A stretch of 64,000 nucleotides of DNA. It comes from Rhodoferax lacus (GTDB lineage: Bacteria; Pseudomonadota; Gammaproteobacteria; Burkholderiales; Burkholderiaceae_C). Where the stretch lies: contig NZ_QFZK01000001.1 in NCBI RefSeq assembly GCF_003415675.1, forward strand, positions 1-64,000, written 5' to 3'. The notes beneath the pieces are model-generated. The model was given only the letters and a program-made list of their open reading frames with translations. It was not told the DNA's origin and made no database searches. The position numbers and the translations under genes are program-made. This document shows positions 44,199-60,166 of the stretch, piece by piece. Position 1 is the stretch's first letter. Each line of letters begins with the position of its first letter.

Positions 44199-45620
44199 TT
44201 AGAGTCCGTTGATGATTTTGTATTCCAGGAAATCCTGCAGGCCAAAGCGGCCCCACTCGCGTCCGTTACCCGACTGCTTGTAGCCGCCAAAAGGGTTGCA
44301 GTACTCGTTGCCGCTGGCATTGACCGACACATTGCCCGCACGCAGGCGCTTGGCCACACGCCGGGCTTTCACCTTGTCGTTGGTGCTGAGGTACGCAGCC
44401 AGGCCGAAGGGCGTGTCGTTGGCAATGCGGATGGCGTCTTCTTCGTCCTCAAAGGGAATCAGGCACAGCACGGGGCCGAAGATCTCCTGGCGCGCAATCG
44501 GCATGTCATTGGTGACATCGGCAAAGATGGTGGGTTTCACGAAATAGCCGGCATCAAACCCATCCGGGCGCCCGGGGCCGCCCACTACCAGCCGCGCACC
44601 GCAGTGCATGCCGATGTCGATAAAACGGTTCACGGTTTCGAACTGGCGCTTCATGGCCAGCGGGCCTATGCCATCGCCTTTTTCAGTGGGCTGGATCACG
44701 CGCACGTTGGCACCGGCTTTTGTGGCAGCGGCCACGGCCTGCGCGTACACCGACTTTTCAATCAGCATGCGGGTGGGCGCGTTGCAGCTCTGGCCGGTGT
44801 TGTTCATGCAGCGCTTCACGCCGCGCGCAACCGAGGCATCCACATCGCAGTCGGCAAAGATGATGTTGGGCGACTTGCCACCCAACTCCTGCACCACGCG
44901 CTTGACCGTGTCGGCCGCAGCCTTGGCCACGGCAATGCCTGCGCCCGTGGACCCGGTGAAGGACACCAGGTCCACCTCGGGGTGGGCGCTCAGGGCGGCA
45001 CCCACCACCGGGCCATCGCCGTAAACCATGTTGAAGACGCCCGGCGCATAGCCGGCCTCATCCATGTATTCGCCCACCAACTTGGCCGAGAGCGGCGCGA
45101 ATTCGCTGGGCTTGAGCACCACCGTGCAACCGGCCAGCAGGGCCGGTGCCAGCTTGGCCACCACCTGGTTCATGGGCCAGTTCCAGGGCGTGATCAGCAC
45201 GCACACGCCAATGGCTTCGCACAACAAGTCACCCTTGCCGCTCTTCACTTCAAACGGATAGTCCTTGGCCGCTTCCAGCGTGGCCTTGATGTGGCCAGGG
45301 CCGCACTCGGCCTGCGAGTCATAGGCCAGATCCCAGGGCGCACCCATCTCGGTGCTGATGGCCTGGGCCATTTCGGTGTAACGGCGCTCAAATATGCCTT
45401 GCAGCTTGTGCAGCATTTCAGTGCGGTAGGCCAGGGTGGTCTGGCTGTAGGCATCAAAGGCGCGGCGGGCGGCCATGACAGCGCGGTCGGCATCCAGCGC
45501 GCCACCCATGGCCACAGTGCCCACGGATTGCTCGGTGGCCGGATTGATGATGGGGTGGGGCGTGCCGGGCTGCAGCGGCTCGCACCAGGCACCATCGATA
45601 TAGAAGTTGCAAGTGGTCAT
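44199..45620 (-). CDS. NAD(P)-dependent aldehyde dehydrogenase
   Basis: A 473-residue member of the ALDH superfamily. The catalytic Cys is in NNTGQSCNAPTRM, the general-base Glu in VQELGGKSPNIIF, and the cofactor loop is SFTGSTGAG. It oxidises an aldehyde to its acid; betaine aldehyde or a sugar-derived semialdehyde would fit the cluster but the sequence does not decide. The ATG at 45620 is used; a TTG at 45632 is possible. It is 45 bases downstream of the hydroxyacid dehydrogenase gene. Confidence 0.92.
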   Translation of the reverse strand: MTTCNFYIDGAWCEPLQPGTPHPIINPATEQSVGTVAMGGALDADRAVMAARRAFDAYSQTTLAYRTEMLHKLQGIFERRYTEMAQAISTEMGAPWDLAYDSQAECGPGHIKATLEAAKDYPFEVKSGKGDLLCEAIGVCVLITPWNWPMNQVVAKLAPALLAGCTVVLKPSEFAPLSAKLVGEYMDEAGYAPGVFNMVYGDGPVVGAALSAHPEVDLVSFTGSTGAGIAVAKAAADTVKRVVQELGGKSPNIIFADCDVDASVARGVKRCMNNTGQSCNAPTRMLIEKSVYAQAVAAATKAGANVRVIQPTEKGDGIGPLAMKRQFETVNRFIDIGMHCGARLVVGGPGRPDGFDAGYFVKPTIFADVTNDMPIARQEIFGPVLCLIPFEDEEDAIRIANDTPFGLAAYLSTNDKVKARRVAKRLRAGNVSVNASGNEYCNPFGGYKQSGNGREWGRFGLQDFLEYKIINGL

Positions 45621-45665
45621 GGGTGTCTCCAAAAGGGAATGGCGCGGCGGTTGTGCAGGCTGCGC

Positions 45666-46589
45666 TTATTCGGCCAGCAGTTCAGTGGGGTAGCCAGGTG
45701 CGCGCAGTTCCAGGTCGCAGGCTTTTTCCAGCATGCGCACCACCTCGGGGGACTGCGCGTTGCCGCCCATGAGGCCGCGCGCACGGCGGAAGATTTGCTG
45801 CGCCATGCTGCCCAATTCGAGTGGCACGCCCAGCTTTTCGGCAATGCCGTTGACCAACCCTAAGTCCTTGCAGGCCAGGTCCATGGTGAACTTGACGTTG
45901 TAGCTGCCCGAGAGCACCAGCTTCGACTCGGTCTCGTGCACAAAGCTGTTGCCCGAACTTGCGCGGATAGCGCGGTAGGTGGCGTCCGGGTCCACACCAA
46001 ATTTGGCCGGCAGCATCATGGCTTCTCCGGCTGCAATCAGGTGGATGAAGGCCAGCATATTGGTCACCACTTTGACTACCGAGGCATTGCCCATCTTGCC
46101 CATGTAGATGATTTCGCCGCCTATGGTTTTGAGCACGTCTTCGACCTGTTTGAAGGTGTCTTCCTCACCGCCCACCAGCACGGTGATCTCGCCCGAGTTG
46201 GCCAGGTGCACGCCACCGGTGACGGGGCATTCCAACACCTTGATGCCTTTGGCTTTGGCCACGTCGCTCAGGCGCAGCAGGTCGTCCATGTCGGTGGTGC
46301 TCATCTCGATCCAGATGCCACCTGCTTTGAGGTTGTCGAACACGCCGTTCTTGCCTTCTACGACTTGGCGGGAAACTGCCGGGGAGGGGAGAACGGTGAT
46401 GACGATGTCAGCGTCCTGGCAGGCGCCGGCTGTGGTGTCGGACCAGGTTGCTCCGGCTTGAAGCAGTTTTGTCGCCAGGTTTTTGTTGAGGTCGTTGACG
46501 GTGACGGGGTGGCCGGCTTTGACGAGGCTGTTGCACAGGCCTTCGCCGAGGCTGCCAAGGCCGATGAAGCCGATTTTTTGTTTGGTCAT
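45666..46589 (-). CDS. Beta-hydroxyacid dehydrogenase (3-hydroxyisobutyrate type)
   Basis: A 307-residue NAD(P)-dependent oxidoreductase. The Rossmann motif is GFIGLGSLGEGLCNSL; substrate-binding ECPVTGGVHLANSGEITVLV and the catalytic Lys in NASVVKVVTNML are those of the 3-hydroxyisobutyrate/tartronate semialdehyde reductase family. The substrate probably comes from the enolase-superfamily enzyme or the aldehyde dehydrogenase encoded next. First gene of the aldehyde dehydrogenase/enolase block, just after the first 530-bp repeat. Confidence 0.9.
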   Translation of the reverse strand: MTKQKIGFIGLGSLGEGLCNSLVKAGHPVTVNDLNKNLATKLLQAGATWSDTTAGACQDADIVITVLPSPAVSRQVVEGKNGVFDNLKAGGIWIEMSTTDMDDLLRLSDVAKAKGIKVLECPVTGGVHLANSGEITVLVGGEEDTFKQVEDVLKTIGGEIIYMGKMGNASVVKVVTNMLAFIHLIAAGEAMMLPAKFGVDPDATYRAIRASSGNSFVHETESKLVLSGSYNVKFTMDLACKDLGLVNGIAEKLGVPLELGSMAQQIFRRARGLMGGNAQSPEVVRMLEKACDLELRAPGYPTELLAE

Positions 46590-46630
46590 TGTTGGTCCTT
46601 TATGTGGTGATGAATAGGGTTTGTTGGCTG

Positions 46631-47166
46631 TCGTTGCAAGCCGGGTCTCGGCCCGGCGGCCGACTCACTTTCTCTTGCCTCGCCAAGAGAAAGTAAGCAA
46701 AGAGAAGGCGAGCCAAAGACCGTGCCCCTTCGGGGTACCCTGCGCTGCTCGCGTTGTGCGGGGTCTGGCTAAACTCGGCTATCGCCTCAAACAACGCCAG
46801 CCCTGATCCGCCCAACGCTGCGCTGCTCGGCACGGCCTCAATGGCGGTGGGGATCGGACTACCGCTCGCGTCAGCATCCGCTCCGGCGCGCGTGTCTTCG
46901 GTCTTGGTATTGGGCTTGGGCTTGGTATTGCTCCCCCACGCCCGTGTGCGCGTGCCGAGGAGCGCAGCAGCAGGCGGAAAAAGCGGGCCGCTTGTTTGAG
47001 GCGATAGCCGAGTTTGCGGCCAGCCCGCCTGTTGCGAGCACCGCAGGTTGCCCGTAGCGCAGCGGAGGGACACGCGCACCCGGGTCGCCTTTTCTTTGGT
47101 TCGTTTCTTTTGGCGAAGCAAAAGAAATGAACTCGGCCGCCGGGCCGAGACCCGGCCTGCCACGAA
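46631..47166. repeat. Long near-palindromic repeat, copy 1
   Basis: About 535 bases with no credible gene. The two ends are inverted copies starting CCGGGTCTCGGCCCGGCGG; inward of this, each half carries a short hairpin with the loop region TTGCxTCGCCAA and then AAGGCGA, a TGCTCGC block and the segment CTCGGCTATCGCCTCAAACA, so the whole unit is a long imperfect inverted repeat around a GTATTGGGCTTGG centre. A second copy, in the same orientation, lies at 54320-54846. Short open frames inside (for example with RQKKRTKEKAT) are translations of the repeat, not genes. Confidence 0.85.
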
Positions 47167-47222
47167 AGCAAAAGCAGATAACAAAGAGAGGCTGGTCCGC
47201 CAAGCAAAGCCAGAGCAAAACA

Positions 47223-48845
47223 TCAAGCGTTGTCCTGCAAAATCATCTCCGAAGCCTTCTCCGCCACCATCATCACCGGCCCATTCGTATTGCCAGACGT
47301 GACAGAAGGAAACACCGAAGCATCGACAACGCGCAAAGAGGCAATGCCATGCACCCGCAAGCGCGCATCCACCACCGAAGCAGCCGGATCCACCCCCATC
47401 GCACAGGTGCAAGACGCGTGGTACACAGAGCCTGCGCGCGCCCGGAAGTCCTTCAATATATCCGCATCCGACTGCACCGAGACCCCCGGCAAATGCTCGC
47501 TTTGCAACACATCGCACAAGGGCTTGCTGTTGGCAATGCTGCGCACCATGCGTGAGCCTTCCACGATGTCGCGCAGGTCGTGCTCGGTCGTCAAAAAGTG
47601 GGTTTCAATCTTGGGTTTGTCCAAGGGGTTGGACGAGGTGATGGTCACACTGCCGCGGCTGGTGGGCACGCAGGTGTTGAAGGAAATCAGAAAGGCCGAG
47701 AACGGATCGGGGTTGGTGATCTTGAAGCGCCCGGGGACGATGGTGGCCGCGCTGTAGCTGATGGGGTTGAAGTACAGATGCAGATTGGGCCGCTCCAGGC
47801 CCGGGCGGCTGCGCACAAAGGCGCCAGCCTGGTTCACGCTCATGCCCAGCGGGCCTTTGCGGGTGAAGAGGTAGCGCACACCCGCCCACAGCTTGCCATA
47901 CCAGGGGTAGAGCTTGTCGTTGAGCGTGGGTACGCGCGACTTGAAGAAGTAGGACACGCACAGATGGTCCTGCAGGCCCTGGCCCACACGCGGCGCATGC
48001 AGCACCAGGGGCACGCCCACGCGCGCCAAATGTTCGCTGTCGCCAATGCCGGAGAGTTGCAAGAGTTGGGGCGAGTTGATGGCGCCACCCGACAGAATGA
48101 CTTCCTTGGCCGCGGTAAAGGTCTGCAGTGCGCCGTTCACCAGGCACTCCACACCCACGGCCTTTTTGTTCTCCAGCAGCACGCGGGTGGCGTGGGCCCG
48201 GGTTTTGAGCGTCAGGTTGCTGCGCTTCAGTGCCGGGCGCAAAAAGGCGTTGGAGCTGGACTCGCGCACGCCACCGCGAATCGTCATCTGCCACAGGCCA
48301 AAACCTTCTTTCAGCTCGCCATTGAAATCTTCGGTGCGGGCATAGCCCAGGTTCTTGCCGGCTTGCAAAAAACGCTCGCACAAGGGGTGCACCTGGTCCT
48401 TGAAATCGCTCACGCGCAACTCGCCACCGGCACCGTGGTGGTCGGAGGCGCCAAAGATGTGGTCTTCGTGTTTCTTGAAGTAGGGCAGCACATCTTTCCA
48501 GGCCCAGCCGGTGTTTCCTGCGGCGGCCCAGTCGTCGTAGTCGCCCTGCTGGCCGCGGATGTAGACCATGGCATTGAGCGAGCTGCTGCCGCCCAGCACC
48601 TTGCCACGTGGCCAGAAGGAGGCGCGCTGGTTCAGGGCCGGGTCGGGTTGGGTGGTGTACATCCAGTTGTATGTGGGGTCGGCAAAGGTCAGGCCGTAGC
48701 CCAGGGGCACCTGAATCAAGGGGCTGCGGTCGGATCCGCCAGCCTCCAGCAGCAGCACCCGGTCTTTGCCGCTGGCAGACAGGCGGTTGGCCAGCACACA
48801 GCCGGCTGAGCCTGCGCCCACGATGATGTAGTCGAATGCGTTCAT
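47223..48845 (-). CDS. GMC-family oxidoreductase (choline dehydrogenase-like)
   Basis: A 540-residue FAD enzyme of the glucose-methanol-choline family. The FAD motif is YIIVGAGSAGCVLANRLS; GMC signatures include GGSSSLNAMVYIRG and SGGAINSPQLLQLSGIG; the active-site His is in YHASCTCAMG and the Asn in TNGPVMMVAEK. It is close to BetA-type choline dehydrogenases, but the family is broad and the alcohol it oxidises is not certain. The ATG at 48845 fits the family start. It is divergent from a MocR regulator across 123 bases. Confidence 0.88.
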   Translation of the reverse strand: MNAFDYIIVGAGSAGCVLANRLSASGKDRVLLLEAGGSDRSPLIQVPLGYGLTFADPTYNWMYTTQPDPALNQRASFWPRGKVLGGSSSLNAMVYIRGQQGDYDDWAAAGNTGWAWKDVLPYFKKHEDHIFGASDHHGAGGELRVSDFKDQVHPLCERFLQAGKNLGYARTEDFNGELKEGFGLWQMTIRGGVRESSSNAFLRPALKRSNLTLKTRAHATRVLLENKKAVGVECLVNGALQTFTAAKEVILSGGAINSPQLLQLSGIGDSEHLARVGVPLVLHAPRVGQGLQDHLCVSYFFKSRVPTLNDKLYPWYGKLWAGVRYLFTRKGPLGMSVNQAGAFVRSRPGLERPNLHLYFNPISYSAATIVPGRFKITNPDPFSAFLISFNTCVPTSRGSVTITSSNPLDKPKIETHFLTTEHDLRDIVEGSRMVRSIANSKPLCDVLQSEHLPGVSVQSDADILKDFRARAGSVYHASCTCAMGVDPAASVVDARLRVHGIASLRVVDASVFPSVTSGNTNGPVMMVAEKASEMILQDNA

Positions 48846-48887
48846 AGAGTGGGGCAATCAGTTCGGTGCGGTCGTAGCATGGGCGGC

Positions 48888-48950
48888 AATTGCGCATACT
48901 ATGACCTGAATTGCATGCCATCAATGCAGCCGGTTTGAGTAATTGCACAT
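48888..48950. promoter_or_regulatory. Three phased direct repeats, candidate MocR operator
   Basis: AATTGCGCAT (48888), AATTGCATGC (48909) and AATTGCACAT (48941) are direct repeats in the intergenic region between the GMC oxidoreductase gene and the MocR gene. Their starts are 21 and 32 bases apart, two and three helical turns, so they lie on the same face of the DNA. MocR/GntR-type regulators commonly bind such spaced direct repeats. Confidence 0.55.
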
Positions 48951-48968
48951 TTGAGGGACTAGACACCG

Positions 48969-50348
48969 TTGCCCGCCGACAACCTGATCACCACCGCCTG
49001 CTTCCAGGACACCCGCAAACCACGCTACCTGGCCATTGCCGATGAACTGGCCCAAGCCATTCTGAACGGCCAGTTGCCCACCGGTGAGCGCCTGCCGCCG
49101 CAGCGCAAGCTGGCGCAGCGCCTGTCAGTGACAGCTGGCACGGTCAGCCATGCCTATGCCCTTCTGGAGCAGCGTGGCCTGGCCACGGCGCGCGTGGGCG
49201 ACGGCACCTATGTGCACGCACCGTCGCAGACGCCCAAGGTGGCGGACAGTGCCACACCGGTGGACCTGGCCCACAACGTGGCCATCCCCACGCAAGACGG
49301 GGCTGCCTTGGCCAGCTACCTGCAGCGCCTGGCACTGGACGAACGGGCGCTGGGCGAGGTACTGAGCTACCAGCCCGAGCTGGGTCACATGCGCCACCGC
49401 CAGGCGGGCGCCCAATGGCTGCGGCGCTTTGGCACCACGGGGGATGCCAACCGGGTGATGGTGACGCATGGTGCGCAGCATGGCCTCTCGTGCGTCCTGC
49501 GCACGCTGGCTCGCCCTGGGGATGCGGTGCTGACCGAGTCGCTCAGCTACGCGGGCTTGCAGGCGCAGGCGCGCCTCATGCGCTTGCAGTTGGTGGGCAT
49601 TGAGATGGATGCCGAGGGCATGCTGCCCGACGCGCTGGACCATGCCGCCCGCCATATTGATGCCAAGCTGCTGTACTGCTCGCCCAGCCTGCACAACCCC
49701 AGCAACGCCAGCATGTCCATGCGCAGGCGCGAGCTCATTGCCCAGGTGGCGCGGCGCCACAACCTGCTCTTGGTTGAGGACGCGGTGCATGCCGCCGCCC
49801 AGGCGCAGCCGTTGCCAGCCCTTTCCACGCTGCTGCCTGAGCAGTCGTTTCTGTTGTCGAGCTTTTCCAAGGTGGCCGGGCCGGGTCTGCGTGTGGGGTA
49901 TGTAGAGGCTGCGCCGCAATGGCTTAGCAAGCTGGCGGCCAGCATGCGGGCTGATTGCTGGATGGTGGCGCCGCTGATGCCCGACATCGTGAGCGACTGG
50001 ATAGAGAGCGGTGTGGCCGAGCAACTGATTGCCGCGCAACGTGCTGCCATCGCTCAGCGCCTGGCCTTGGCACTGCCGCTGCTGCAGAGCCTGGACTATT
50101 GCAGCGACCCCGAGTCACCACTCATCTGGTTGCCCTTGCCTGAACCCTGGCGCGCCGGTCCGTTTTCTGCCGCCCTGCGCCAGGCCGGAGTCCTGGTGCG
50201 CACAGCCGACCACTTCGCCGTGGGCCGCGCGCCTGCGCCACATGCGGTGCGCATCAGCCTGAATGCGGCGAAGTCGGGTGCCGAGGTTGAAACCGGGCTG
50301 CGCACGCTGGTGGGCGTGCTGCGGGGCTTGCCCACGGCACAACCCTGA
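48969..50348 (+). CDS. MocR-type (GntR/aminotransferase) regulator
   Basis: A 459-residue regulator with an N-terminal GntR winged HTH (LPTGERLPPQRKLAQRLSV and SHAYALLEQRGLA) and a C-terminal fold-type I aminotransferase domain with the PLP lysine in LLSSFSKVAGPGLRVGY. MocR proteins use PLP as a sensor and often activate a divergent operon, here the GMC oxidoreductase gene. The start appears to be a TTG at 48969, since there is no suitable ATG near the HTH. It converges on soxG, four bases away. Confidence 0.9.
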   Translation: MPADNLITTACFQDTRKPRYLAIADELAQAILNGQLPTGERLPPQRKLAQRLSVTAGTVSHAYALLEQRGLATARVGDGTYVHAPSQTPKVADSATPVDLAHNVAIPTQDGAALASYLQRLALDERALGEVLSYQPELGHMRHRQAGAQWLRRFGTTGDANRVMVTHGAQHGLSCVLRTLARPGDAVLTESLSYAGLQAQARLMRLQLVGIEMDAEGMLPDALDHAARHIDAKLLYCSPSLHNPSNASMSMRRRELIAQVARRHNLLLVEDAVHAAAQAQPLPALSTLLPEQSFLLSSFSKVAGPGLRVGYVEAAPQWLSKLAASMRADCWMVAPLMPDIVSDWIESGVAEQLIAAQRAAIAQRLALALPLLQSLDYCSDPESPLIWLPLPEPWRAGPFSAALRQAGVLVRTADHFAVGRAPAPHAVRISLNAAKSGAEVETGLRTLVGVLRGLPTAQP

Positions 50349-50352
50349 CGCG

Positions 50353-50967
50353 CTACAGAAGCTCCAGGGACACTCCGTATTCCAGCGCCGCGTCCAGCAC
50401 GGTGCCGAGCTGGTCGTGGGCGTAGGTACTGAACACATAGATGTCAAACGCGTCCGTGTCCAGGCGGTGCAGCATGCTGGGCACGTGGTGGGTGCCGGTG
50501 AGCGCCACGTCGCCGATGGGAAAGGTGGACTCACGCAGGTCCAGTGCGAAAAGCTTGCCCAGGGTGCTGCGGCACTGCGCGCCGGTGATGCGGATGCGGC
50601 AGCGCGCCTGGCTGAGGTCGGTGACTGCACCGGTGTCCGCGCCAATGCTGGTGCGCAAGAGGGCTGTGCGGTCGGTGGCATCGTCGCCCACCAAGACAAA
50701 CTCTTCCGGGCCGGTGCGCATCAAGAGGCCCAGCTCGGTCTGCACGGACTTGCCGGTGTGCACGGGCAGGGTGCTGCCGAAGACGGAGGACATGCTTTGC
50801 AGCAGGCCGGGCAGGCCGCTGATCCAGGTGCTGATGAGCGTGACGCTGGGCAGCATGCTGGCCGAAAGTTGCACGCCTACCTGGCCGGCCTGGTTGGGGC
50901 GTGGGCCTGTCGAGTGACCCTCGAAGGGAGAGCGCACATGCGCGCTGGGAAGTGTTGGTTCAACCAC
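50353..50967 (-). CDS. soxG: Sarcosine oxidase gamma subunit
   Basis: A 204-residue protein matching the small gamma subunit of heterotetrameric sarcosine oxidase, with TGPEEFVLVGDDATDR and DLSQARCRIRITGAQCRSTL. It lies last in soxB-soxD-soxA-soxG and overlaps soxA by eight bases. The complex oxidatively demethylates sarcosine to glycine, producing H2O2 and 5,10-methylene-tetrahydrofolate. Confidence 0.9.
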   Translation of the reverse strand: MVEPTLPSAHVRSPFEGHSTGPRPNQAGQVGVQLSASMLPSVTLISTWISGLPGLLQSMSSVFGSTLPVHTGKSVQTELGLLMRTGPEEFVLVGDDATDRTALLRTSIGADTGAVTDLSQARCRIRITGAQCRSTLGKLFALDLRESTFPIGDVALTGTHHVPSMLHRLDTDAFDIYVFSTYAHDQLGTVLDAALEYGVSLELL

Positions 50968-53900
50968 GGTAACGGTTTCCTTCTGGATCGAGGAAGCAGG
51001 GTTCTACCACCTTGAGTTTGTATTGGCGCCCATGCACTGGCGAGGCAGCTACCACGGTCTGGCCGACGCGGGTGGTTCCCCCTTGCAGCAGGCCCAGGGC
51101 AATCGCCTTGCCCATGGATTTGCTGTAGGTGGTGCTCGTGATGTGGCCGCGACCATGCCCCTTGATCTCGTCATCGGCAAAGAACAGGATGGCGCCGTTG
51201 TTGGGCGGCTCGTTGGCGTCCAGCGCCTCCAGGCCCACCAGCGTGGGGCGGTTGGGCCGCTGCAGCACTTCGCTGTGGCGCAGGGCGTCGCCCCAGAAGG
51301 GTTTGAGCTGGCTGGCCATCTTGCCTGCACCCACATCGTCCAGGGTGGTGCGGCCATCCATCTCCGAGCCCACCACATGGCCTTTTTCGATGCGCAGCGA
51401 ACCCAGTGCTTCCAGGCCGTAGCTGCCCAGCTTCCAGGGCTTGCCCATCTCCATCAGATGGTCCCAGACCGCGCGGCCATGGTGGGTGGGCGTGTAGACC
51501 TCGTAGGCCATCTCACCCGAGAAGGTCAGGCGGATGATGCGCACCTTCACGCCGGCCATGGCACCTTCCAGCATGGCATCCACCACGCCCATGAAGGGAA
51601 AGGACTCGTTGTCGAAGTTGATGCTGGGGAAGGCCGCACGCATGACCTCGCGCACCGGCCGCCCGGCTACGCTCATGGCAGCCCACTGGTCGGAAATGGA
51701 GGCCACAGTCACCCGCAGCTCCGGCCACACCACCTGCAGCAAGAACTCCAGATGGCTCATGACGCGGGCCGCTTGGGCCGTGGTGGTGGTCATGAAGAAT
51801 TCGGTCTCGCTGATGCGGCTGGTGGTGCCGTCGTCCATGACGATGCCGTCTTCGCGCAGCATGAAGCCGTAGCGGGCTTTGCCGATACCCAGCTTGGCAA
51901 AGCCGTTCACATACACGCGGTTCAGGAACTCGGCCGCATCTGGCCCCTGCACATCAATTTTGCCCAGGGTGGATACATCGGCCATGCCAACACCTTCGCG
52001 CACGATGTCCATCTCGGCCTTGTAGGCCTCGGACAGGTTGGCGCCATGGGTCTGGTACCACAGCGGGCGCATCCAGTAGCCGGCCTCCATCATCTGGCCG
52101 CCGTTGTCCAGATGCCAGTCGTGCATGGCGGTGCGGCGTACCGGCGCCAGGTGGCTGCGCACGCTGCGCCCGGCAATCGTGCCGATGGTGGCCGGCGTGT
52201 AGGGTGGGCGGAAGGTCGTGGTGCCCACATCTGCAATCGCCATACCGCGCTTGCTGGCCATCAGGGCTAAGGCGTTCAGGTTGGAGGTCTTGCCCTGGTC
52301 GGTGCCCATGCCCTGGGTGGTGTAGCGCTTGAGGTGCTCCACCGACTGGTAGCCCTCCAGATGCGCCAGGGCCACATCGTCGGTGGCCACATCGTTCTGG
52401 AAATCAATAAAACTCTTGTCCACAGGCTTGGCTGTGGCAATGGGCGGGATGCTGGTGAAGGCCATGTAGGCGTCGCTGGAATCCGGCGCGCGCGGGGCGT
52501 CGCCGCTGATGGCTTTGCCACAGACCTGTGCTGCCTGGCGCGCCGCTTCCCAGCCGCTCTGGATGGCCGCCGTCATGGTCTGCGTGCCCAGCATGCTGCC
52601 TGCGCCAAAGTGCGCCACGTCAAAGCCGCCCGGCACAAAGCTGCACAGCTCGGGCTTGTAGACCGGGCGTATGCCGCGGTGCGAGGTCAGATGCACGGAC
52701 GGCGTCCAGCCGCCGGACATGGCCAGCAGGTCTACCGTTTGGCTGGCTTGGGTCTGGCCGAGCGCGCCGGTGGCAATGTCGTAGGAAGCCAGTGCGCACT
52801 GGTTCACGCGCGCGGCACCCGTGGCCTGCACCACTGCCGTGGCGGTGCGCACATCAATTCCTGCGGCCCGGGCGCTTTCCACCAGGCCGGTATTGACCTG
52901 CTTGCGCAAGTCAGCCAGCGTGACCTGGGCCCCGGCCTTGGCCAGCGCCATGGCATCGGCGTAGGCGGCGTCGTTGTTGGTGTTGAAGACGGCCTGCTTG
53001 CCAGCCATCACCGCATAGCGGTTGGCATAGGTGCCCACCGCACTGCTGAGCATCACGCCCGGCCTGTCGTTGCCCGCAAATAGCAGCGGACGCTCCAGTG
53101 CGCCGCAGGCCATGACCACGCTTTTGCAGCGCAGGATGTGCAGGCGCTGGCGTGGCACGCCGCGCGCCGCGTCGGCTACGCCGGGGGCGCTGCGCTCCAT
53201 CACGCCCACGGTGTTGCCGTCGAACAGGCCGAAGCCGGTGGCGCGGTTCATCAGGGTGACCTTGCTGTGGGACTGCAGTTCGTCCAGGGTGCTCTTGAGC
53301 CACTGTGCTTCCGGGCTGTTGATGGCGTGGTTCAAGAGTGAACCGCCGTATTCAAAATCCTGCTCCACCAGCGTCACATCCAATCCGGCGCGGGCGGCTC
53401 CCAATGCGGCTGTCAAGCCTGCGGGGCCGGAGCCAACCACCAGCACATCGGGGAATCCATGGTGCCAGTCGTAGCGGTCCGGGTCGGGCAACTCGGTCGC
53501 TTTGCCCAGGCCGGCCGCCTTGCGGATGAAGTGCTCAAAAAACATCCAGCCCTTGAGCGAGGGCATGAAGGTCTTGTAATAAAAGCCCGCCACAAAAATG
53601 GAAGACAGCTTGTTGTTCACCGCCATCAGATCGAACGCGACGGAGGGCCAGGCGTTTTGCGTGCGGGCCACCACGCTGCTGTGGGTTTCTATGACCGTGG
53701 CCGCAATATTCGGTTCTGTTGTTGCGCCACTGCCCAGCGTCAGCAGGGCATTGGGTTCTTCCACGCCGGCTGCCACGATGCCGCGTGGGCGGTGGTATTT
53801 GAAGGAGCGCGCTACCAGGTGCTTGCCATGCGCCAGCAGCGTGGCGGCCACGGTGTCGCCTGCGTAGCCAGTGAGGCTTTGGCCGTCGAAGGAGATGGTG

Positions 53901-53971
53901 ACTGGCTGGCTGCGGTCTATGCGGCCGCCCTGCGCCGTGCGGAATGCGCCGGCTTGTGTGGGGTTGCTCAT
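50960..53971 (-). CDS. soxA: Sarcosine oxidase alpha subunit
   Basis: A 1003-residue subunit. The N-terminal region (ISFDGQSLTGYAGDTVAATL) is followed by a nucleotide-binding domain (VLVVGSGPAGLTAALGAARA, about 175-195), and the C-terminal 400 residues are a GcvT-like aminomethyltransferase domain (ADVSTLGKIDVQGPDAAEFL and later SFPFMGV) that binds tetrahydrofolate. It carries NAD and the folate site of the complex. Its start overlaps the soxD stop by four bases. Confidence 0.95.
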   Translation of the reverse strand: MSNPTQAGAFRTAQGGRIDRSQPVTISFDGQSLTGYAGDTVAATLLAHGKHLVARSFKYHRPRGIVAAGVEEPNALLTLGSGATTEPNIAATVIETHSSVVARTQNAWPSVAFDLMAVNNKLSSIFVAGFYYKTFMPSLKGWMFFEHFIRKAAGLGKATELPDPDRYDWHHGFPDVLVVGSGPAGLTAALGAARAGLDVTLVEQDFEYGGSLLNHAINSPEAQWLKSTLDELQSHSKVTLMNRATGFGLFDGNTVGVMERSAPGVADAARGVPRQRLHILRCKSVVMACGALERPLLFAGNDRPGVMLSSAVGTYANRYAVMAGKQAVFNTNNDAAYADAMALAKAGAQVTLADLRKQVNTGLVESARAAGIDVRTATAVVQATGAARVNQCALASYDIATGALGQTQASQTVDLLAMSGGWTPSVHLTSHRGIRPVYKPELCSFVPGGFDVAHFGAGSMLGTQTMTAAIQSGWEAARQAAQVCGKAISGDAPRAPDSSDAYMAFTSIPPIATAKPVDKSFIDFQNDVATDDVALAHLEGYQSVEHLKRYTTQGMGTDQGKTSNLNALALMASKRGMAIADVGTTTFRPPYTPATIGTIAGRSVRSHLAPVRRTAMHDWHLDNGGQMMEAGYWMRPLWYQTHGANLSEAYKAEMDIVREGVGMADVSTLGKIDVQGPDAAEFLNRVYVNGFAKLGIGKARYGFMLREDGIVMDDGTTSRISETEFFMTTTTAQAARVMSHLEFLLQVVWPELRVTVASISDQWAAMSVAGRPVREVMRAAFPSINFDNESFPFMGVVDAMLEGAMAGVKVRIIRLTFSGEMAYEVYTPTHHGRAVWDHLMEMGKPWKLGSYGLEALGSLRIEKGHVVGSEMDGRTTLDDVGAGKMASQLKPFWGDALRHSEVLQRPNRPTLVGLEALDANEPPNNGAILFFADDEIKGHGRGHITSTTYSKSMGKAIALGLLQGGTTRVGQTVVAASPVHGRQYKLKVVEPCFLDPEGNRYRG

Positions 53972-54291
53972 GCGGTGGCTTTCTTGCCTGCGGCCGGGCC
54001 GGTGGTGGGGGCGGGGCTAGTGGCGCCCAGGGGGCGGTTGCGTGCGGGCATGACTTCGAGGATGTCGTGGGTGATGGTGTTGCGTTTGACTACCAGCCAG
54101 CGGCGGCAGGCGAGGGTGTGTTGCCAGAATTCATAGTGCTCGCCCTTGGGGTTGTTGCGGGTGTAGACGGCTTCTACCCAGCCTGCGTGGTTTTCTTTTT
54201 CCAGTCCGGGGTAGGTTTTGGTGGCGTCGCCGAAGTAGCTGAATTCTTCGTGGTCGCGCTCGCCGCAGTTTGGGCAGGTGATTCTTAGCAT
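53968..54291 (-). CDS. soxD: Sarcosine oxidase delta subunit
   Basis: A 107-residue zinc protein starting MLRITCPNCGERDHEEFSYF, with the third Cys in HTLACRRWLVVKRNT, as in characterised SoxD. The C-terminal tail is Ala/Pro-rich. The gene is separated from soxB by 583 bases occupied by the second 530-bp repeat, while it overlaps soxA by four bases. Confidence 0.95.
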   Translation of the reverse strand: MLRITCPNCGERDHEEFSYFGDATKTYPGLEKENHAGWVEAVYTRNNPKGEHYEFWQHTLACRRWLVVKRNTITHDILEVMPARNRPLGATSPAPTTGPAAGKKATA

Positions 54292-54319
54292 ATTGCTTTG
54301 TTTGTGATGTTGGTGGTTG

Positions 54320-54846
54320 CGTGGCAAGCCGGGTCTCGGCCCGGCGGCCGACTCACTTTCTCTTGCTTCGCCAAGAGAAAGTGAGCAATGAGAAGGCGAG
54401 CCAAAGTCCGTGCCGCTGCGCGGTACCCTGCGCTGCTCGCGTTGGGCGGGGTCTGGCTAAACTCGCTTCGCTCAAACAACGCCAGCCCTGATCCGCCCAA
54501 CGCTGCGCTGCTCGGCACGGCCTCAATGGCGTGGGGGAGCGGACTACCGCTCGCTCCAGCATTCGCTCCGGCGCGCGTGTCTTCGGTATTGGTATTGGGC
54601 TTGGTATTGCTTCCCCACGCCCGTGTGGCTGCGCCGAGCAGCGCAGCGGAGCGCGGAAAAAGCGGGACGCTTGTTTGAGCCCGTAGGGCGAGTTTGCGGA
54701 CCGCCCGCGCGGAGTGAGCAGCGCAGGTTGCCCCGTAGCGCAGCGAAGGGGTCGCAGACACCAGGGTCGCCTTTTCTTTGGTTCGTTTCTTTTGGCGAAG
54801 CAAAAGAAATGAACTCGGCCGCCGGGCCGAGACCCGGCTTGCCACG
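54320..54846. repeat. Long near-palindromic repeat, copy 2, inside sox operon
   Basis: About 527 bases bounded by perfect 32-base inverted ends (54320-54351 and 54815-54846, starting CGTGGCAAGCCGGGTCTCGG). Just inside the left end a 14-base perfect stem (54352-54365 with 54372-54385) forms a hairpin; a similar weaker hairpin lies inside the right end. It is highly similar to copy 1 at 46631-47166 and has the same orientation. It occupies nearly all of the soxB-soxD spacer and has no credible gene. Confidence 0.88.
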
Positions 54847-54874
54847 AAAGAAAAACCATCAAACAAAGAGGACA

Positions 54875-56152
54875 TCACTGCAAGTGGTTATAAGGCCCAT
54901 ACCCCGCCTCATCGATATACCGCCCCTTCTCAAACCGATCCATCGTGAATCCGGCGTTATAGGCATGCGGCGAGTCGTTGGCAATCGTGTGCGCAAAACA
55001 CCAGCCAGAAGCGGGAGTGGCTTTAAACCCGCCATAACACCACCCCCCATTCAAATACAAACCAGGCACAGGCGTCGTCGTAATAATGGGCGACCCATCC
55101 GGCGTCATATCCATAATCCCGCCCCAGCTACGCAACAAGCGCAGCCGCGCCGCAAACGGCACCATACTCACCAGGCCCTGCATGGTCTCACCCCAGTTGG
55201 CCAGGTTGCCGCGCTGCGCATACGAGTTGTAGCGGTCAATATGTCCGCCAAAGACGAGGCCGCCCTTGTCGGATTGCGAGACGTAAAAGTAGGTGGCACT
55301 CCACACCACCACGTGGTTCACCACCGGCTTGATGGACTCGCTCACAAAGGCCTGCAGCACATGGCTTTCAATCGGTAGTTTCAATCCGGCTTTTTGCGCC
55401 AGCACCGAGGTATGGCCCGCCACCGCAATGCCGACCTTGCCTGCGCTGATGTTGCCGCGGTTGGTCTTCACCCCCACAATCCTCTCGCCGGACCAGATGT
55501 AGTCCTGCACTTCGCAGTTCTGGATGATGTCCACACCCATCTGGTCGGCCGCGCGGGCATAGCCCCAGGCCACGGCGTCGTGGCGGGCGGTGCCGGCGTC
55601 GGGCTGCAGCATGCCGCCGTAAATCGGGAAGCGCGCTTGTGGCGAGTAGTCCAGGTAGGGCGCCTCCTTCATCATCTCCTCGCGCGTGAGAATTTCGGCG
55701 TTGATCCCGTTCAGGCGCATGGTGTTGGCGCGGCGCACCACGCCGTCCAGAGCCGCCTGCGAGCAGGCAGTGAACAGGTAGCCGCGCGGCGAGAACATGA
55801 CGTTGTAGTTCAGGTCTTCGGACATGCCGCGCCACAGCTCCATGCTGTGCTCATAAAACGGCGTGTTCTCCTGCATCATGTAGTTGGAGCGCACGATGGT
55901 CGTGTTGCGCCCCACGTTGCCGCCGCCCACATAGCCTTTTTCCAGGATGGCAATGTTCTTGATGCCGTGGTTCTTGGCCAGGTAGTAGGCGGTGGCCAGG
56001 CCGTGGCCGCCGCCGCCTACGATGATGACGTCGTAGCTCTTCTTGGGCTCGGGGTCGCGCCAGGCGCGCTCCCAGCTCTTGTGCCCACCCATCGCATGCT
56101 TGAGCAGCGACCAGATGGAATACTTTTCTCCCGTGCGTTCGATCACTGCCAT
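54875..56152 (-). CDS. soxB: Sarcosine oxidase beta subunit
   Basis: A 425-residue flavoprotein that binds FAD (motif VIIVGGGGHGLATAYYLAK) and the covalent FMN, and holds the sarcosine-oxidising site. Family segments include NVGRNTTIVRSNYMM and the C-terminal LYLNGGWCYGGFKATPASGW. Its gene follows the dimethylglycine dehydrogenase-like gene by three bases. The natural next gene, soxD, is displaced by the inserted repeat. Confidence 0.95.
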   Translation of the reverse strand: MAVIERTGEKYSIWSLLKHAMGGHKSWERAWRDPEPKKSYDVIIVGGGGHGLATAYYLAKNHGIKNIAILEKGYVGGGNVGRNTTIVRSNYMMQENTPFYEHSMELWRGMSEDLNYNVMFSPRGYLFTACSQAALDGVVRRANTMRLNGINAEILTREEMMKEAPYLDYSPQARFPIYGGMLQPDAGTARHDAVAWGYARAADQMGVDIIQNCEVQDYIWSGERIVGVKTNRGNISAGKVGIAVAGHTSVLAQKAGLKLPIESHVLQAFVSESIKPVVNHVVVWSATYFYVSQSDKGGLVFGGHIDRYNSYAQRGNLANWGETMQGLVSMVPFAARLRLLRSWGGIMDMTPDGSPIITTTPVPGLYLNGGWCYGGFKATPASGWCFAHTIANDSPHAYNAGFTMDRFEKGRYIDEAGYGPYNHLQ

Positions 56153-56155
56153 CGC

Positions 56156-58585
56156 TTACATCCGCATGCGTTTGGCTTCGGGGTCAAACGGCGGGTCCAT
56201 CTGCAGGCGTGCCTTGCGGCGCTCGCCCAGGATTTCAATTTCCAGGTCGATGCCGTCCTTCACCAGTTCGGTAGGGATGTAGCCCTGGGCCAGCGACTGG
56301 TCCACAAAATGGCCATAGCCGCCGGAGGTCACCCAGCCCACCACCTTGCCATCGGCCCAGATCGGCTCGTCGCCCATCACATCGCAGTCCAGCGCGTCCA
56401 CCACCATGAAGATGCGGGTCTTCTTGGGGCCTTCCGTTTTTTCCTTCAGGGCTGCGGCCTTGCCGATGAAGTCAGGCTTGTCGAGTTTCACAAAGCGCTC
56501 CAGGCCGGCCTCGAAAGGTCCGTAGATGGGGCGGAACTCGCGGTACCAGGTGCCGAAGTTTTTCTCCAGGCGCATGCACAGCAGTGCGCGCATGCCAAAG
56601 GGCTTGATGCCAAGGTCGGCACCGGCTTCCAGGATGCTTTCGTACAGGCGGCGCTGGTATTCAGGGGCCACCCAGATCTCGTAGCCCAGGTCGCCGGTGT
56701 AGGTGACGCGGTTGACCTTGGCTTGCACCGTGGCCACTTCCATCTCGCGGTAGTCCATGAACTTGAAGGACTCGCCCGAGACATCGTCATCGGTCAGGCG
56801 CTGCAGCAGTTCGCGCGACTTGGGGCCGGCAATCGACAGGCCAATGAGCTTCATGCCGTAGGGCGTGATGCGCACGGAGCCGTCCTTGGGCAGGTGCTGC
56901 TCGAACCAGCGCATGTGGTAGACCTGCGCCTGCGACGAGCCCCACATCATGTAGCGGTTGTCTTCGGCTTTGGCGATGGTGAAGTCGCCAATGATCTTGC
57001 CGTTCTGGTTGAGCATGGGCGTGAGCATCAGGCGGCCGGTCTTGGGCATGGTGTTGGTCATCACCTGCAGCAGCCAGGCTTCCGCCCCGGGTCCTACGAT
57101 TTCGTATTTGGCGAAGTTGGCGATCTCGGTCACACCCACGCCATTGCGTACGTTCTTAACCTCGGCCTTGATGGGCTCGAAGTCATTGGAGCGGTGGAAG
57201 GACACGATGTCTTTTGCCTCTGAGCCCTTGGGAGCAAACCACAGGGGCGTCTCCATACCCCAGGAGTCGCCCATGACCGCGCCCTGTTCGATGAACTTGT
57301 CGTACAGCGGCGTGGTCTGCAGCGGGCGTGCTGCGGGCAGCTCTTCGTTGGGGAAGCGGATACGGAAGCGGCGCGAATAGTTCTCGCGTACCTTGGCATT
57401 GGTGTAGGTGCGGGTGGCCCAGTCGCCATAGCGCGCCACGTCCATGCCCCAGATGTCAAAGCCGGGGTCGCCGTCCACCATCCAGTTGGAGAGTGCCAGG
57501 CCCACGCCGCCGCCCTGGCTAAATCCAGCCATCACGCCGCAGGCGCTCCAGAAGTTGGTGCGGCCCTGCACCGGCCCCACCAGCGGGTTGCCGTCGGGTG
57601 CGAAGGTGAAGGGGCCGTTGATGACGCGCTTGATGCCTGCGTTCTCCAGCGTGGGGAAGTGTTTGAAGGCAATTTCCAGTGAGGGCGCGATGCGGTCCAG
57701 GTCGGGCTGCAGCAACTCCTGGCCAAAGCTCCAAGGTGTGTTCTTGGGGCTCCAGGGTTTGCCAGCCTGTTCGTACACGCCCAGCACCATGCCCTTGCCT
57801 TCTTGGCGCAGATAGCTCTCGGCACCGAAGTCGATGACGTGGCCGATTTCCTTGCCGGTGCTCTTGTTGAACTCCACCACTTCGGGGATGTCGTCGGTCA
57901 CCAGGTACATGTGTTCCATGGCCAGCACCGGCAGCTCGATGCCCACCATGCGGCCCACCTCGCGCGCCCACAGGCCGCCGGCGTTGACCACGTGCTCGCA
58001 CTCGATCACGCCCTTGTTGGTGATGACGCGCCAGTGGCCGTCGGGCTTTTGCTCCAGGCTCTCGACCTTGGTTTGCACTTCAATCGTTGCTCCCCCCAGT
58101 CGCGCGGCCTTGGCGTAGGCATAGGTGGTGCCGCTGGGGTCCAGGTGGCCTTCGTTGGGGTCGAGCAGTGCGCCCAGGAAATATTTTTCTTCGATGAAGG
58201 GGAAGTAATTCTTGGCTTCCTTGACCGAGATGATTTCGGTCTCCATGCCGAGATAGCGGCCACGGGCTACCGTCATCTTCAGGAATTCCATGCGCTCGGG
58301 CGTGTCGGCCAGCATGATGCCGGGTGACTTATGCAGGCCGCAGCTCTGGCCGGAGATGCGCTCCAACTCTTCGTACAAGGCCACGGTGTAGCTTTGCAGC
58401 ATGGCCACATTGGGGTCACCGTTGAGGGTGTGAAAGCCTCCTGCCGCATGCCAGGTGGAGCCGGAGGTGAGCTGGTCACGCTCCAGCAACATCACATCAC
58501 TCCAACCCTTTTTTGTCAGGTGGTACAGGACCGAGCATCCCACCACGCCGCCACCAATCACTACTACTTGTGCTGTCGTCTTCAC
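56156..58585 (-). CDS. Dimethylglycine dehydrogenase-like FAD/GcvT protein
   Basis: An 809-residue fusion: an N-terminal DAO-type FAD domain (VVVIGGGVVGCSVLYHLTKK, then GSTWHAAGGFHTL), an FAO_M linker region, and a C-terminal GcvT/aminomethyltransferase domain (NGVGVTEIANFAKYEIVGPG and LGYEIWVAPEYQRRLYESI). Dimethylglycine and sarcosine dehydrogenases have this layout: they oxidise an N-methyl group and pass the carbon to tetrahydrofolate. Next to mttB and soxBDAG, dimethylglycine to sarcosine is the most likely reaction. It is 21 bases after mttB and three before soxB. Confidence 0.9.
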   Translation of the reverse strand: MKTTAQVVVIGGGVVGCSVLYHLTKKGWSDVMLLERDQLTSGSTWHAAGGFHTLNGDPNVAMLQSYTVALYEELERISGQSCGLHKSPGIMLADTPERMEFLKMTVARGRYLGMETEIISVKEAKNYFPFIEEKYFLGALLDPNEGHLDPSGTTYAYAKAARLGGATIEVQTKVESLEQKPDGHWRVITNKGVIECEHVVNAGGLWAREVGRMVGIELPVLAMEHMYLVTDDIPEVVEFNKSTGKEIGHVIDFGAESYLRQEGKGMVLGVYEQAGKPWSPKNTPWSFGQELLQPDLDRIAPSLEIAFKHFPTLENAGIKRVINGPFTFAPDGNPLVGPVQGRTNFWSACGVMAGFSQGGGVGLALSNWMVDGDPGFDIWGMDVARYGDWATRTYTNAKVRENYSRRFRIRFPNEELPAARPLQTTPLYDKFIEQGAVMGDSWGMETPLWFAPKGSEAKDIVSFHRSNDFEPIKAEVKNVRNGVGVTEIANFAKYEIVGPGAEAWLLQVMTNTMPKTGRLMLTPMLNQNGKIIGDFTIAKAEDNRYMMWGSSQAQVYHMRWFEQHLPKDGSVRITPYGMKLIGLSIAGPKSRELLQRLTDDDVSGESFKFMDYREMEVATVQAKVNRVTYTGDLGYEIWVAPEYQRRLYESILEAGADLGIKPFGMRALLCMRLEKNFGTWYREFRPIYGPFEAGLERFVKLDKPDFIGKAAALKEKTEGPKKTRIFMVVDALDCDVMGDEPIWADGKVVGWVTSGGYGHFVDQSLAQGYIPTELVKDGIDLEIEILGERRKARLQMDPPFDPEAKRMRM

Positions 58586-58606: not shown

Positions 58607-60166
58607 TTAAAAATCGGTGGGCGCGCCGCCCTCGGCTTTGCGCCTGGCCACAAAGGCATCGAGCTCTTCTTCGATCGCCGGGTCCATGGCCGGGCGCTCG
58701 TAAGCGGCCAGCTCTTTTTGCCAGACCGCATTGGCCTTCTGGTAGGCGGTGGGGCTGCCGCCCTCGCTCCAGGTCTCGAAGTTGCGCCAGTCGGAAATGA
58801 TGGGCGAGTAGAACGCGGTCTCGAAGCGCTCCAGCGTGTGCGCCGTGCCAAAGTAATGGCCGCCGGGCTCCACATCGCGGATGGCATCCAGACCCAGGGC
58901 GGCCGGGCTGGTGTCCAGGGGGGTGAGGAACTCGGCCACCATTTGCAGCAGGTCGCAGTCCAGCACAAATTTTTCAAAGGAAGCCGTCAGGCCACCTTCG
59001 AGCCAACCGGCGCTGTGCATGATGAAGTTGCCGCCGCCCTGCGTCAAAGCCCAGAGCGAGAACACCGACTCATAGGCCGCCTGTGCGTCCACTGTGTTGG
59101 CGGCGTTCACATTGCTGGTGCGGTAGGGCACGCCGTACTTGCGGCAGAGCTGGCCACCGGCCAGCACGGCCTTCATGTACTCGGGCGTGCCGAAAGCGGG
59201 GGCGCCGGTCTTCATGTCCACATTGCTGGTGAAGCCGCCGTACACCACCGGCGCGCCAGGGCGCACCAGCTGGGTGAAGGCAATGCCGGCCAGGGCTTCG
59301 GCGTTCTGCTGCACCAGGGCACCGGCAATGGTCACGGGCGCCATGGCACCGGCCAGGGTGAAGGGCGTGAGCATCACGATCTGGTTGCGTGAGGACATCT
59401 CCATGATGCCCTGCAGCATGGGCGTGTCCAGGCGCCGCGGCGAGTTGCTGTTGATGATGGTGAACAGCGAGGGCTCAGCCTCGAACTGCTCGTGGCTGAT
59501 GCCACGCGCAATGCGGGCAATCTCCATGCCGTCGCGGTTGCGCTCCTTGCCCAGGGAGTAGGCGTGAAAAGGCTTGTCGGTCAGCTTGGCAATGTCGGAG
59601 AGGCAGTCCAGGTGGCGGATGCTGGCGTGCAGGTCCACCGGCTCCACCGGATAGCCACCGGTGCAGCTGATGATGTCATAGCGCTGGGCCAGCTTGACCA
59701 GGTTGCGGAAGTCCTGCTGGTTGCCTGCGCGCCGACCGCCTTGCATGTCCGAGCAATTGGGCGGGCTGGCCACCTGGGCGAATGCCAGGTTCTTGCCACC
59801 GATGCGGATGTTGCGCTCGGGGTTGCGCGCATGCAGGGTGAATTCGGAGGGGCAGGTCTTGATCGTCTCCATGATCATGTTGCGGTCAAAACGCACGCGC
59901 TCCACGCCGTCTTTCACATCGGCACCGGCTTTTTTCAGGATGGCGCGGGCGCCCTCGTGCATGAAGTCAATGCCCATTTCTTCGAGCACGGTAAGCGAGG
60001 CGTTGTGGATGGATTCCAGCTCGTCTTCGGAGACCACCGGCGAGGGTGGGAAGCGGTGCTTCAGCGAGCGGTATTGGGTGGTGGAGAGGGCTGCGCGAAC
60101 GGTGCCACTGCCGCGGCCACCCCGTCTGCGGGGACCGGCGGTGCGGCCTGTAACTTCATCTGACAT
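58607..60166 (-). CDS. Trimethylamine methyltransferase (MttB) family protein, no pyrrolysine
   Basis: A 519-residue TIM-barrel protein of the MttB superfamily (COG5598). Characteristic segments are EEMGIDFMHEGARAILKKAG, TGGYPVEPVDLHASIRHLDC and MKAVLAGGQLCRKYGVPYRT. There is no in-frame TAG, so it belongs to the non-pyrrolysine group, whose known members (for example MtgB) demethylate quaternary amines such as glycine betaine and pass the methyl group to a corrinoid protein. No corrinoid protein or activator gene is nearby. It heads a tight operon with the dimethylglycine dehydrogenase-like and sarcosine oxidase genes. Confidence 0.9.
   Translation of the reverse strand: MSDEVTGRTAGPRRRGGRGSGTVRAALSTTQYRSLKHRFPPSPVVSEDELESIHNASLTVLEEMGIDFMHEGARAILKKAGADVKDGVERVRFDRNMIMETIKTCPSEFTLHARNPERNIRIGGKNLAFAQVASPPNCSDMQGGRRAGNQQDFRNLVKLAQRYDIISCTGGYPVEPVDLHASIRHLDCLSDIAKLTDKPFHAYSLGKERNRDGMEIARIARGISHEQFEAEPSLFTIINSNSPRRLDTPMLQGIMEMSSRNQIVMLTPFTLAGAMAPVTIAGALVQQNAEALAGIAFTQLVRPGAPVVYGGFTSNVDMKTGAPAFGTPEYMKAVLAGGQLCRKYGVPYRTSNVNAANTVDAQAAYESVFSLWALTQGGGNFIMHSAGWLEGGLTASFEKFVLDCDLLQMVAEFLTPLDTSPAALGLDAIRDVEPGGHYFGTAHTLERFETAFYSPIISDWRNFETWSEGGSPTAYQKANAVWQKELAAYERPAMDPAIEEELDAFVARRKAEGGAPTDF

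Follow-up and report, generated by a model that had tools for sequence, protein, structure and literature searches.

Many copies of a palindromic, hairpin-bearing repeat family are flanked by a compositional halo. Beside most of those tested, G and T are enriched on the incoming strand, and A and C on the outgoing one, for 200–400 nt, a pattern that alters synonymous codons in the flanking genes. One such copy separates soxB from soxD in the window, the 64,000-nt stretch of Rhodoferax lacus DNA analyzed here. Taken as a whole, the account that we favor, with slightly less than even confidence, is that a repeat copy replaced the spacer between these genes, that it is likely read through, and that a mutational halo forms beside copies of the family.

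A repeat family at the soxB–soxD junction

The soxB–soxD spacer measures 583 nt (54292–54874): on the minus strand, the ATG of soxD ends at 54291 and soxB has its stop at 54875. The original prediction held that this gap is almost entirely a repeat and that the rest of the operon is tightly packed. Both statements stood: a 575-nt imperfect palindrome spans the gap, and in the ORF table the other junctions are 21 nt (mttB to the DMGDH-like gene), 3 nt (DMGDH-like gene to soxB), an overlap (soxD–soxA) and an 8-nt overlap (soxA and the ORF after it). The features, with G+T at third codon positions in windows of 25 codons, are as follows.

58607–60166, minus strand: MTTB-family methyltransferase, first gene of the run (Pfam)
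56156–58585, minus strand: DAO and GCV_T domain protein (DMGDH-like), upstream in the operon (Pfam); 3′ end G+T 0.48
54875–56152, minus strand: soxB, sarcosine oxidase beta-like, DAO domain (Pfam)
54296–54870, unstranded: palindromic repeat element between soxB and soxD, 575 nt, recognized by imperfect inverted arms and genome copies
54658–54835, plus strand: second hairpin module, inverted, 3′ end towards soxB (covariance model R1, 169.9 bits; in the model's alignment)
54781–54814, unstranded: terminal hairpin, 14-bp stem, recognized as an inverted pair; stem covaries among relatives
54352–54385, unstranded: terminal hairpin, 14-bp stem, recognized as an inverted pair; stem covaries among relatives
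54331–54491, minus strand: hairpin module, sense to the sox mRNA, 3′ end towards soxD (covariance model R1, 160.3 bits; in the model's alignment)
53968–54291, minus strand: soxD (Pfam SoxD); third positions A/C-rich throughout, G+T 0.08–0.20
50960–53971, minus strand: soxA (Pfam); first ∼75 codons low, G+T 0.20, 0.32, 0.20, then 0.44–0.56
50353–50967: ORF after soxA, putative soxG (ORF table)

The arms of the sox copy (54296–54402 and 54764–54870) are 107 nt each, 79% complementary and 361 nt apart. As RNA, the insert folds into a single long hairpin of −349 kcal/mol, with a z-score of −19 against 100 shuffles. Because of this score and because further copies exist, the palindrome is not a chance structure. 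The genome holds three copies in all: this one, one between GMC-oxidoreductase-like and HIBADH-like genes in the window, and one on contig C40 between UrtD-like and UrtE-like genes. The two further copies are 89 and 92% identical to the sox copy. Where names of genes at the non-sox junctions go beyond Pfam domains, they are our interpretation. The second window copy and its neighbors are the following.

47223–48857, minus strand: GMC-oxidoreductase-like ORF, upstream of the copy; a homologue in genome G121 (locus L256, 90% identical) matches GMC_oxred
46632–47188, unstranded: second element copy, with modules at 46643–46806 (minus) and 46979–47153 (plus), laid out as in the sox copy
45666–46589, minus strand: HIBADH-like gene, downstream of the copy (Pfam); 5′ end A/C-rich, G+T 0.12–0.24 over four windows

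The covariance model was built from 22 modules, both sox-copy modules among them. It finds four modules in the window, with E-values of 7e-48 to 2.3e-51, three of the four being among its building sequences. The sox insert belongs to a family of interspersed repeats built from a structured hairpin module, of which this copy has two, inverted and facing outwards. A 197-aa reading frame, open across the whole element (54285–54878, minus strand), has no Pfam match and is probably spurious.

The strong terminal hairpins that the original prediction had pointed to look genuine. RNAalifold gives 21 pairs, 13 of which show two-sided changes. A pattern in which the loop and the inner four pairs are fixed retrieved 82 distinct hairpins; their 14-pair terminal stems comprise 1066 Watson–Crick cells, 55 G·T/U, 3 A·C and 24 others. 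The excess of G·T over A·C means that the structure seems to be kept on one strand, as in RNA. Rfam 15 gave only sub-gathering matches for window positions 45500–56000 and 15 loci, among them SorX at L264 1824–1887 (plus strand; 34.3 bits against a cut-off of 46.6). An initial DNA pattern run over the genome contigs and a search of a phage collection yielded no match to the element; a plasmid collection yielded one matching record, from Variovorax. In the parts of the literature searched, we found no description of the family.

Comparison with relatives, the named ones being Rhodoferax and other Comamonadaceae, indicates that the element is an insertion or a replacement of a short spacer in this lineage, since in three genomes whose SoxB is 94–95% identical (G032, G006 and G065) the soxB–soxD junction is 8 nt long. 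In this the expectation of an insertion into the operon was borne out. Among 47 distinct soxB1 loci, 9 carry the element (two of them cut by contig ends) and 38 do not, the empty loci having spacers of 8–54 nt where soxD is visible. On the soxB1 tree the presence/absence label requires five changes (three of them forced by starred branches), and carriers fall in two distant clades. The paralogous soxB2 (50–54% identity) has the element at 10 of 44 loci and lacks it at 33, two of which bear an unrelated insert, one locus being unjudgeable; here the label requires three changes. Three of the inserts, L041, L160 and L178, are truncated but match others. In a set of 40 named soxB1 loci (351,711 bases), elements occur only at the soxB–soxD junction, at 4 loci that duplicate loci of the main set. 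The soxB1 stop codon is TGA in 7 of the 9 insert alleles and in none of the listed empty ones.

The split is therefore not unique. The original prediction had regarded the same insertion in related species, combined with an independent promoter for soxD, as the mark of an old and neutral split; relatives do bear such elements at the same place, whereas no independent soxD promoter was found. In the sox copy a search for sigma-70-like promoters, a weak test, gave 0 sites against 0.2 in shuffles. The proposal that the element is either transcribed through or supplies a promoter thus stands by default in its first part: because no promoter-like site was found, the sox transcript most likely reads through the element, with translation of soxD separated from that of soxB. 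Pairing of the stretch that follows the soxB stop with the one that precedes soxD, which would fold the insert out of the mRNA, was considered and set aside: 3 of 13 inserts beat their shuffles at p < 0.01 (permutation p 0.015), and the effect is mostly one of composition.

Other junctions are also occupied in some genomes and empty in others. The GMC-oxidoreductase-like/HIBADH-like junction is occupied in G000, G121, G086 and G014 and empty (27–49 nt) in G069, G006, G032 and G065; elements also lie upstream of HIBADH in G098 and at a second G014 locus. At the UrtD/UrtE-like junction, G000, G121 and G014 have the element, whereas G098, G069, G006, G032, G086, G065 and G061 have an empty site (2–20 nt). 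Several other genomes have copies flanked by a hydantoinase/carbamoylase-like pair. Repeated occupation of the same junctions may stem from ancient insertions that some lineages lost, from transfer among species or from a preference for particular sites.

One reading of such recurrence is that the element is a regulatory RNA which operons of nitrogen and one-carbon metabolism retain (those with genes for sarcosine, urea uptake, hydantoin and choline-like functions), where it would tune subunit ratios. The modules covary, the same junctions recur across species, and low-copy genomes have their copies in such operons, all four hairpin matches of G110 being at sox operons. Moreover, the 12 asymmetric sox inserts read share one orientation by eye, the window copy being palindromic. 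However, the copies of G111, G019 and G114 (32, 16 and 15 matches) are dispersed beside other genes. Close relatives lack the element, and part of the recurrence may be common descent. We consider a regulatory role of this kind unlikely.

The hairpin pattern matches in 46 of 100 genomes of the genus, at least 9 of which, as far as read, hold chance matches only. An upstream-motif filter was failed by 21 of 136 ends, of which 11 were unrelated by eye, 9 were second hairpins or variants and 1 was unclear. The covariance model has matches at E ≤ 1e-4 in 35 of 249 Pseudomonadota genomes, the element's own genome included; weaker matches are often the terminal hairpin only, and inverted pairs are common.

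Between modules of G106, G009 and G003 lie additional ORFs. The one in G009 (L018 339–1004, minus strand), between two half-elements, encodes an HNH endonuclease with HNH_repeat domains, and a different ORF without a Pfam match takes the same position in G003 (L033). An endonuclease as the element's own function was rejected in view of this counterpart, and the gene is probably cargo. The module pairs of G106 (L263 and L264) are 1.15–1.22 kb apart with single ORFs of ∼175–179 aa inside. Pfam revealed no recognizable transposase in the enclosed ORFs of G009 and G003, and none was recognized in those of G106.

Strand-asymmetric composition beside element copies

In the window, the halo is visible at both copies. 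Over its last ∼100 codons, taken 25 at a time, soxB has a third-position G+T of 0.80, 0.56, 0.92 and 0.84, then 0.44–0.52; at the 3′ end of the GMC-like ORF it is 0.88, 0.76, 0.64 and 0.76, then 0.28–0.40.

It is useful to contrast carriers with empty loci. In the last 25 codons of soxB1, third-position G+T is 0.76–0.92 (mean 0.82) in 8 carriers and 0.28–0.64 (mean 0.38) in 38 empty loci (p 4.5e-6), a ninth carrier, near-identical to another, being omitted. For soxB2 the values are 0.64–0.92 (mean 0.80) in 10 carriers and 0.16–0.64 (mean 0.34) in 31 empty loci (p 1.7e-6), with the two unrelated inserts (0.88 and 0.20) held outside both groups. These p-values treat related loci as independent, and genes were taken as simple longest ORFs. 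In one soxB2 clade the shift is confined to the last 25 codons, and the next 25 go the opposite way (−0.11). Downstream, soxD1 clade A is shifted by −0.15, whereas soxD1 clade B (−0.03) and soxD2 (+0.05) show no shift, perhaps a floor effect at these genes, which lie downstream of asymmetric elements. Three empty loci are nested among carriers. Two of them have raised G+T, L036 at 0.64 (the highest of the 38) and L055 at 0.52 (tied third), as would fit the fading scar of a lost element; the third, G006, lies outside the top eight empty loci.

One of the unrelated soxB2 inserts, L152 at the sox2 junction of G061, fills a 561-nt gap, has no match to the hairpin-repeat family and holds its own small ORF, which we take to be DUF2809-like. 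Since the adjoining soxB2 end nevertheless has a G+T of 0.88, the halo may not be confined to copies of that repeat. The other, a 135-nt insert at the sox2 junction of G006 (L154), starts similarly and has a G+T of 0.20.

Carriers also resemble one another in sequence. The carrier set ranks first in likeness among 70 label sets for the last 75 nt of soxB, first among 56 at UrtD (its final 75 nt) and again at UrtE (its initial 75 nt), and first among 210 for HIB, but only 31st of 35 for soxD and 14th of 35 for the last 75 nt of GMC. Spread by recombination was rejected as the main cause, since the codon shift is common to the two soxB1 clades and the paralogous soxB2. The composition shift is therefore the main cause of the likeness; there may be some shared descent within soxB1 clade A.

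The same asymmetry recurs elsewhere. Upstream, UrtD and GMC are shifted by +0.21 each; downstream, UrtE is shifted by −0.15 to −0.34 over 100 codons and HIB by −0.21 nearest the element. G111 is a single contig, and 18 of its copy loci were read: here 19 gene ends beside copies have a mean shift of +0.31 (18 positive, 15 of at least 0.25; p 8.7e-10), and 10 adjacent gene starts have a mean of −0.17 (8 negative). Among 232 control ends from 400 kb of this genome, 2.2% reach 0.25, and means are flat regardless of gap or neighbor. At copies in G019, G114 and G021, 14 module-side gene ends have a G+T of 0.74 nearest the element and 0.45–0.49 from 75 codons on. Because the skew at G111 gene ends is reversed at gene starts, the pattern has the element as its center of symmetry and needs more than transcription of the neighboring genes to explain it.

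The skew can be seen without gene calls. Outgoing-strand A+C at 110 module ends, in bins to 600 nt, falls through 0.68, 0.60, 0.59, 0.55, 0.535 and 0.505. For other genera, 39 ends of 20 loci chosen as pairs in nine genomes give 0.62, 0.60, 0.595, 0.52 and 0.51, with 0.50 at random G111 points; the skew is present in seven, and G205 and G367 are nearly flat. A preliminary set of 29 single loci from other genera, with minus-strand matches left unturned, averaged 0.56, 0.50 and 0.52. In Variovorax paradoxus VAI-C, a gene ending at an element has a G+T of 0.96, 0.88, 0.84, 0.68, 0.56 and 0.44.

Comparison with known repeats

Several known repeat systems resemble the element. In the sections of the source available to us (PMC2718517), Pseudomonas fluorescens families such as R0, R1, R2 and R6 are intergenic and hairpin-forming, with two inverted repeats round a variable core and a tail-to-tail bias, features that the sox-type element shares. 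Going by these descriptions, their inverted-repeat members are shorter, at 80–177 bp against ∼560 bp for the element; a single strain has more than 500 copies of R0 and of R2, and those sections describe no flank skew. REP/BIME repeats with RAYT transposases and the TIR families of TIRtrons, as far as the available text of PMC3733652 goes, have hairpins with GT/GU pairing that lie after genes, sometimes as inverted pairs, and again the element is alike. Unlike REPs, it rarely has GTAG (4 of 82 distinct hairpins) or CGTC (1 of 82) at the hairpin foot. Bacterial MITEs are described in the same text as non-coding, intergenic sequences of 70–300 bp with terminal inverted arms. The element is likewise non-coding and intergenic with terminal inverted repeats (the 107-nt arms and paired inverted modules), although it is larger and many copies in other genomes are asymmetric.

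Mobilization by RAYT found no support. No module scored above 10 bits at four RAYT-like loci (in G000, G111, G121 and G019), where only inverted pairs of 18–20 nt (75–89%) occur, one of which, in G019, possibly flanks the gene. Y1_Tnp family genes, mostly one match of ∼240 aa each, are present in 93 of 100 genomes of the genus, those without the element included; one RAYT-like example lies at G000:C30:126641–126922.

An ordinary MITE- or REP-like intergenic repeat might simply prefer sites that are already skewed, with the sox copy being neutral. The inverted module architecture and the widely differing hairpin counts fit this reading. So does the placing of copies in G111, where 29 sides have a gene no more than 260 nt away and 19 of these face a gene end, recalling the tail-to-tail bias given in the consulted part of PMC2718517. 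Yet orthologous empty sites have no skew and the G111 control ends are flat, so site choice and gene ends in general are poor explanations. By eye, no target-site duplication is seen against empty sites at the sox or UrtD–UrtE junctions, where the old spacer is likewise unrecognizable. We regard this reading as distinctly improbable.

Mutational and selective accounts of the halo

Two causes fit the halo: single-strand exposure of the incoming strand, which we think the likelier, and selection on outgoing RNA. Under the first, the palindrome would repeatedly stall or break DNA. On both of its sides the incoming strand would then lack its partner and gather damage with a strand bias, for example deamination of C and A. 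We think it possible, though somewhat less likely than not, that element copies in part of the Pseudomonadota each create a strand skew around them like that of a replication terminus. Breakage, stalling or processing of the hairpin, with exposure of single strands, would then continually rewrite 200–400 nt on each side and place the adjoining coding sequence under its own mutation regime.

The synonymous sites of G111 gene ends bear on both causes. Two-fold and four-fold sites all shift, and at four-fold sites on the coding, incoming strand C falls from 0.40 to 0.12 as G rises from 0.37 to 0.56. The gain of G as well as T goes beyond plain C-to-T deamination and, together with the unshifted soxD2, weakens simple deamination. 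Over the final 75 nt of soxB, carriers also resemble one another more closely than mutational saturation might give, which counts against a mutational cause.

The main rival, which we consider somewhat unlikely, is that selection makes the halo. RNA leaving the element would need to be terminated, so selection would favor an outgoing strand with much C and A, little G and no structure, as in a Rho utilization site, partly silencing antisense RNA into gene ends. The outgoing strand at G111 gene ends is indeed G-poor and C-rich, and the GU/AC asymmetry of the hairpins suggests RNA on the outgoing module strand. The halo, at 200–400 nt, is about as long as a Rho terminator. Against this rival, no promoter-like site was found in the sox copy. 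The outgoing strand gains A along with C, and G111 gene starts, where outgoing RNA would be sense, shift too; these two observations weaken a pure Rho model.

Interspersed palindromic repeats have usually been studied for their mobility or their effects on mRNA. The halo is a pattern for which the portions of the literature searched yielded no description. If a strand-symmetric halo comes and goes with the element, then a short stretch of non-coding repeat governs how neighboring sequence is substituted, and this would bias analyses of codon usage, selection and gene trees near repeats. The pairs of occupied and empty sox, urt and GMC–HIB junctions allow mutational and selective causes to be separated. 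More broadly, the halo offers a natural record of single-stranded DNA or of outgoing RNA in bacterial chromosomes.
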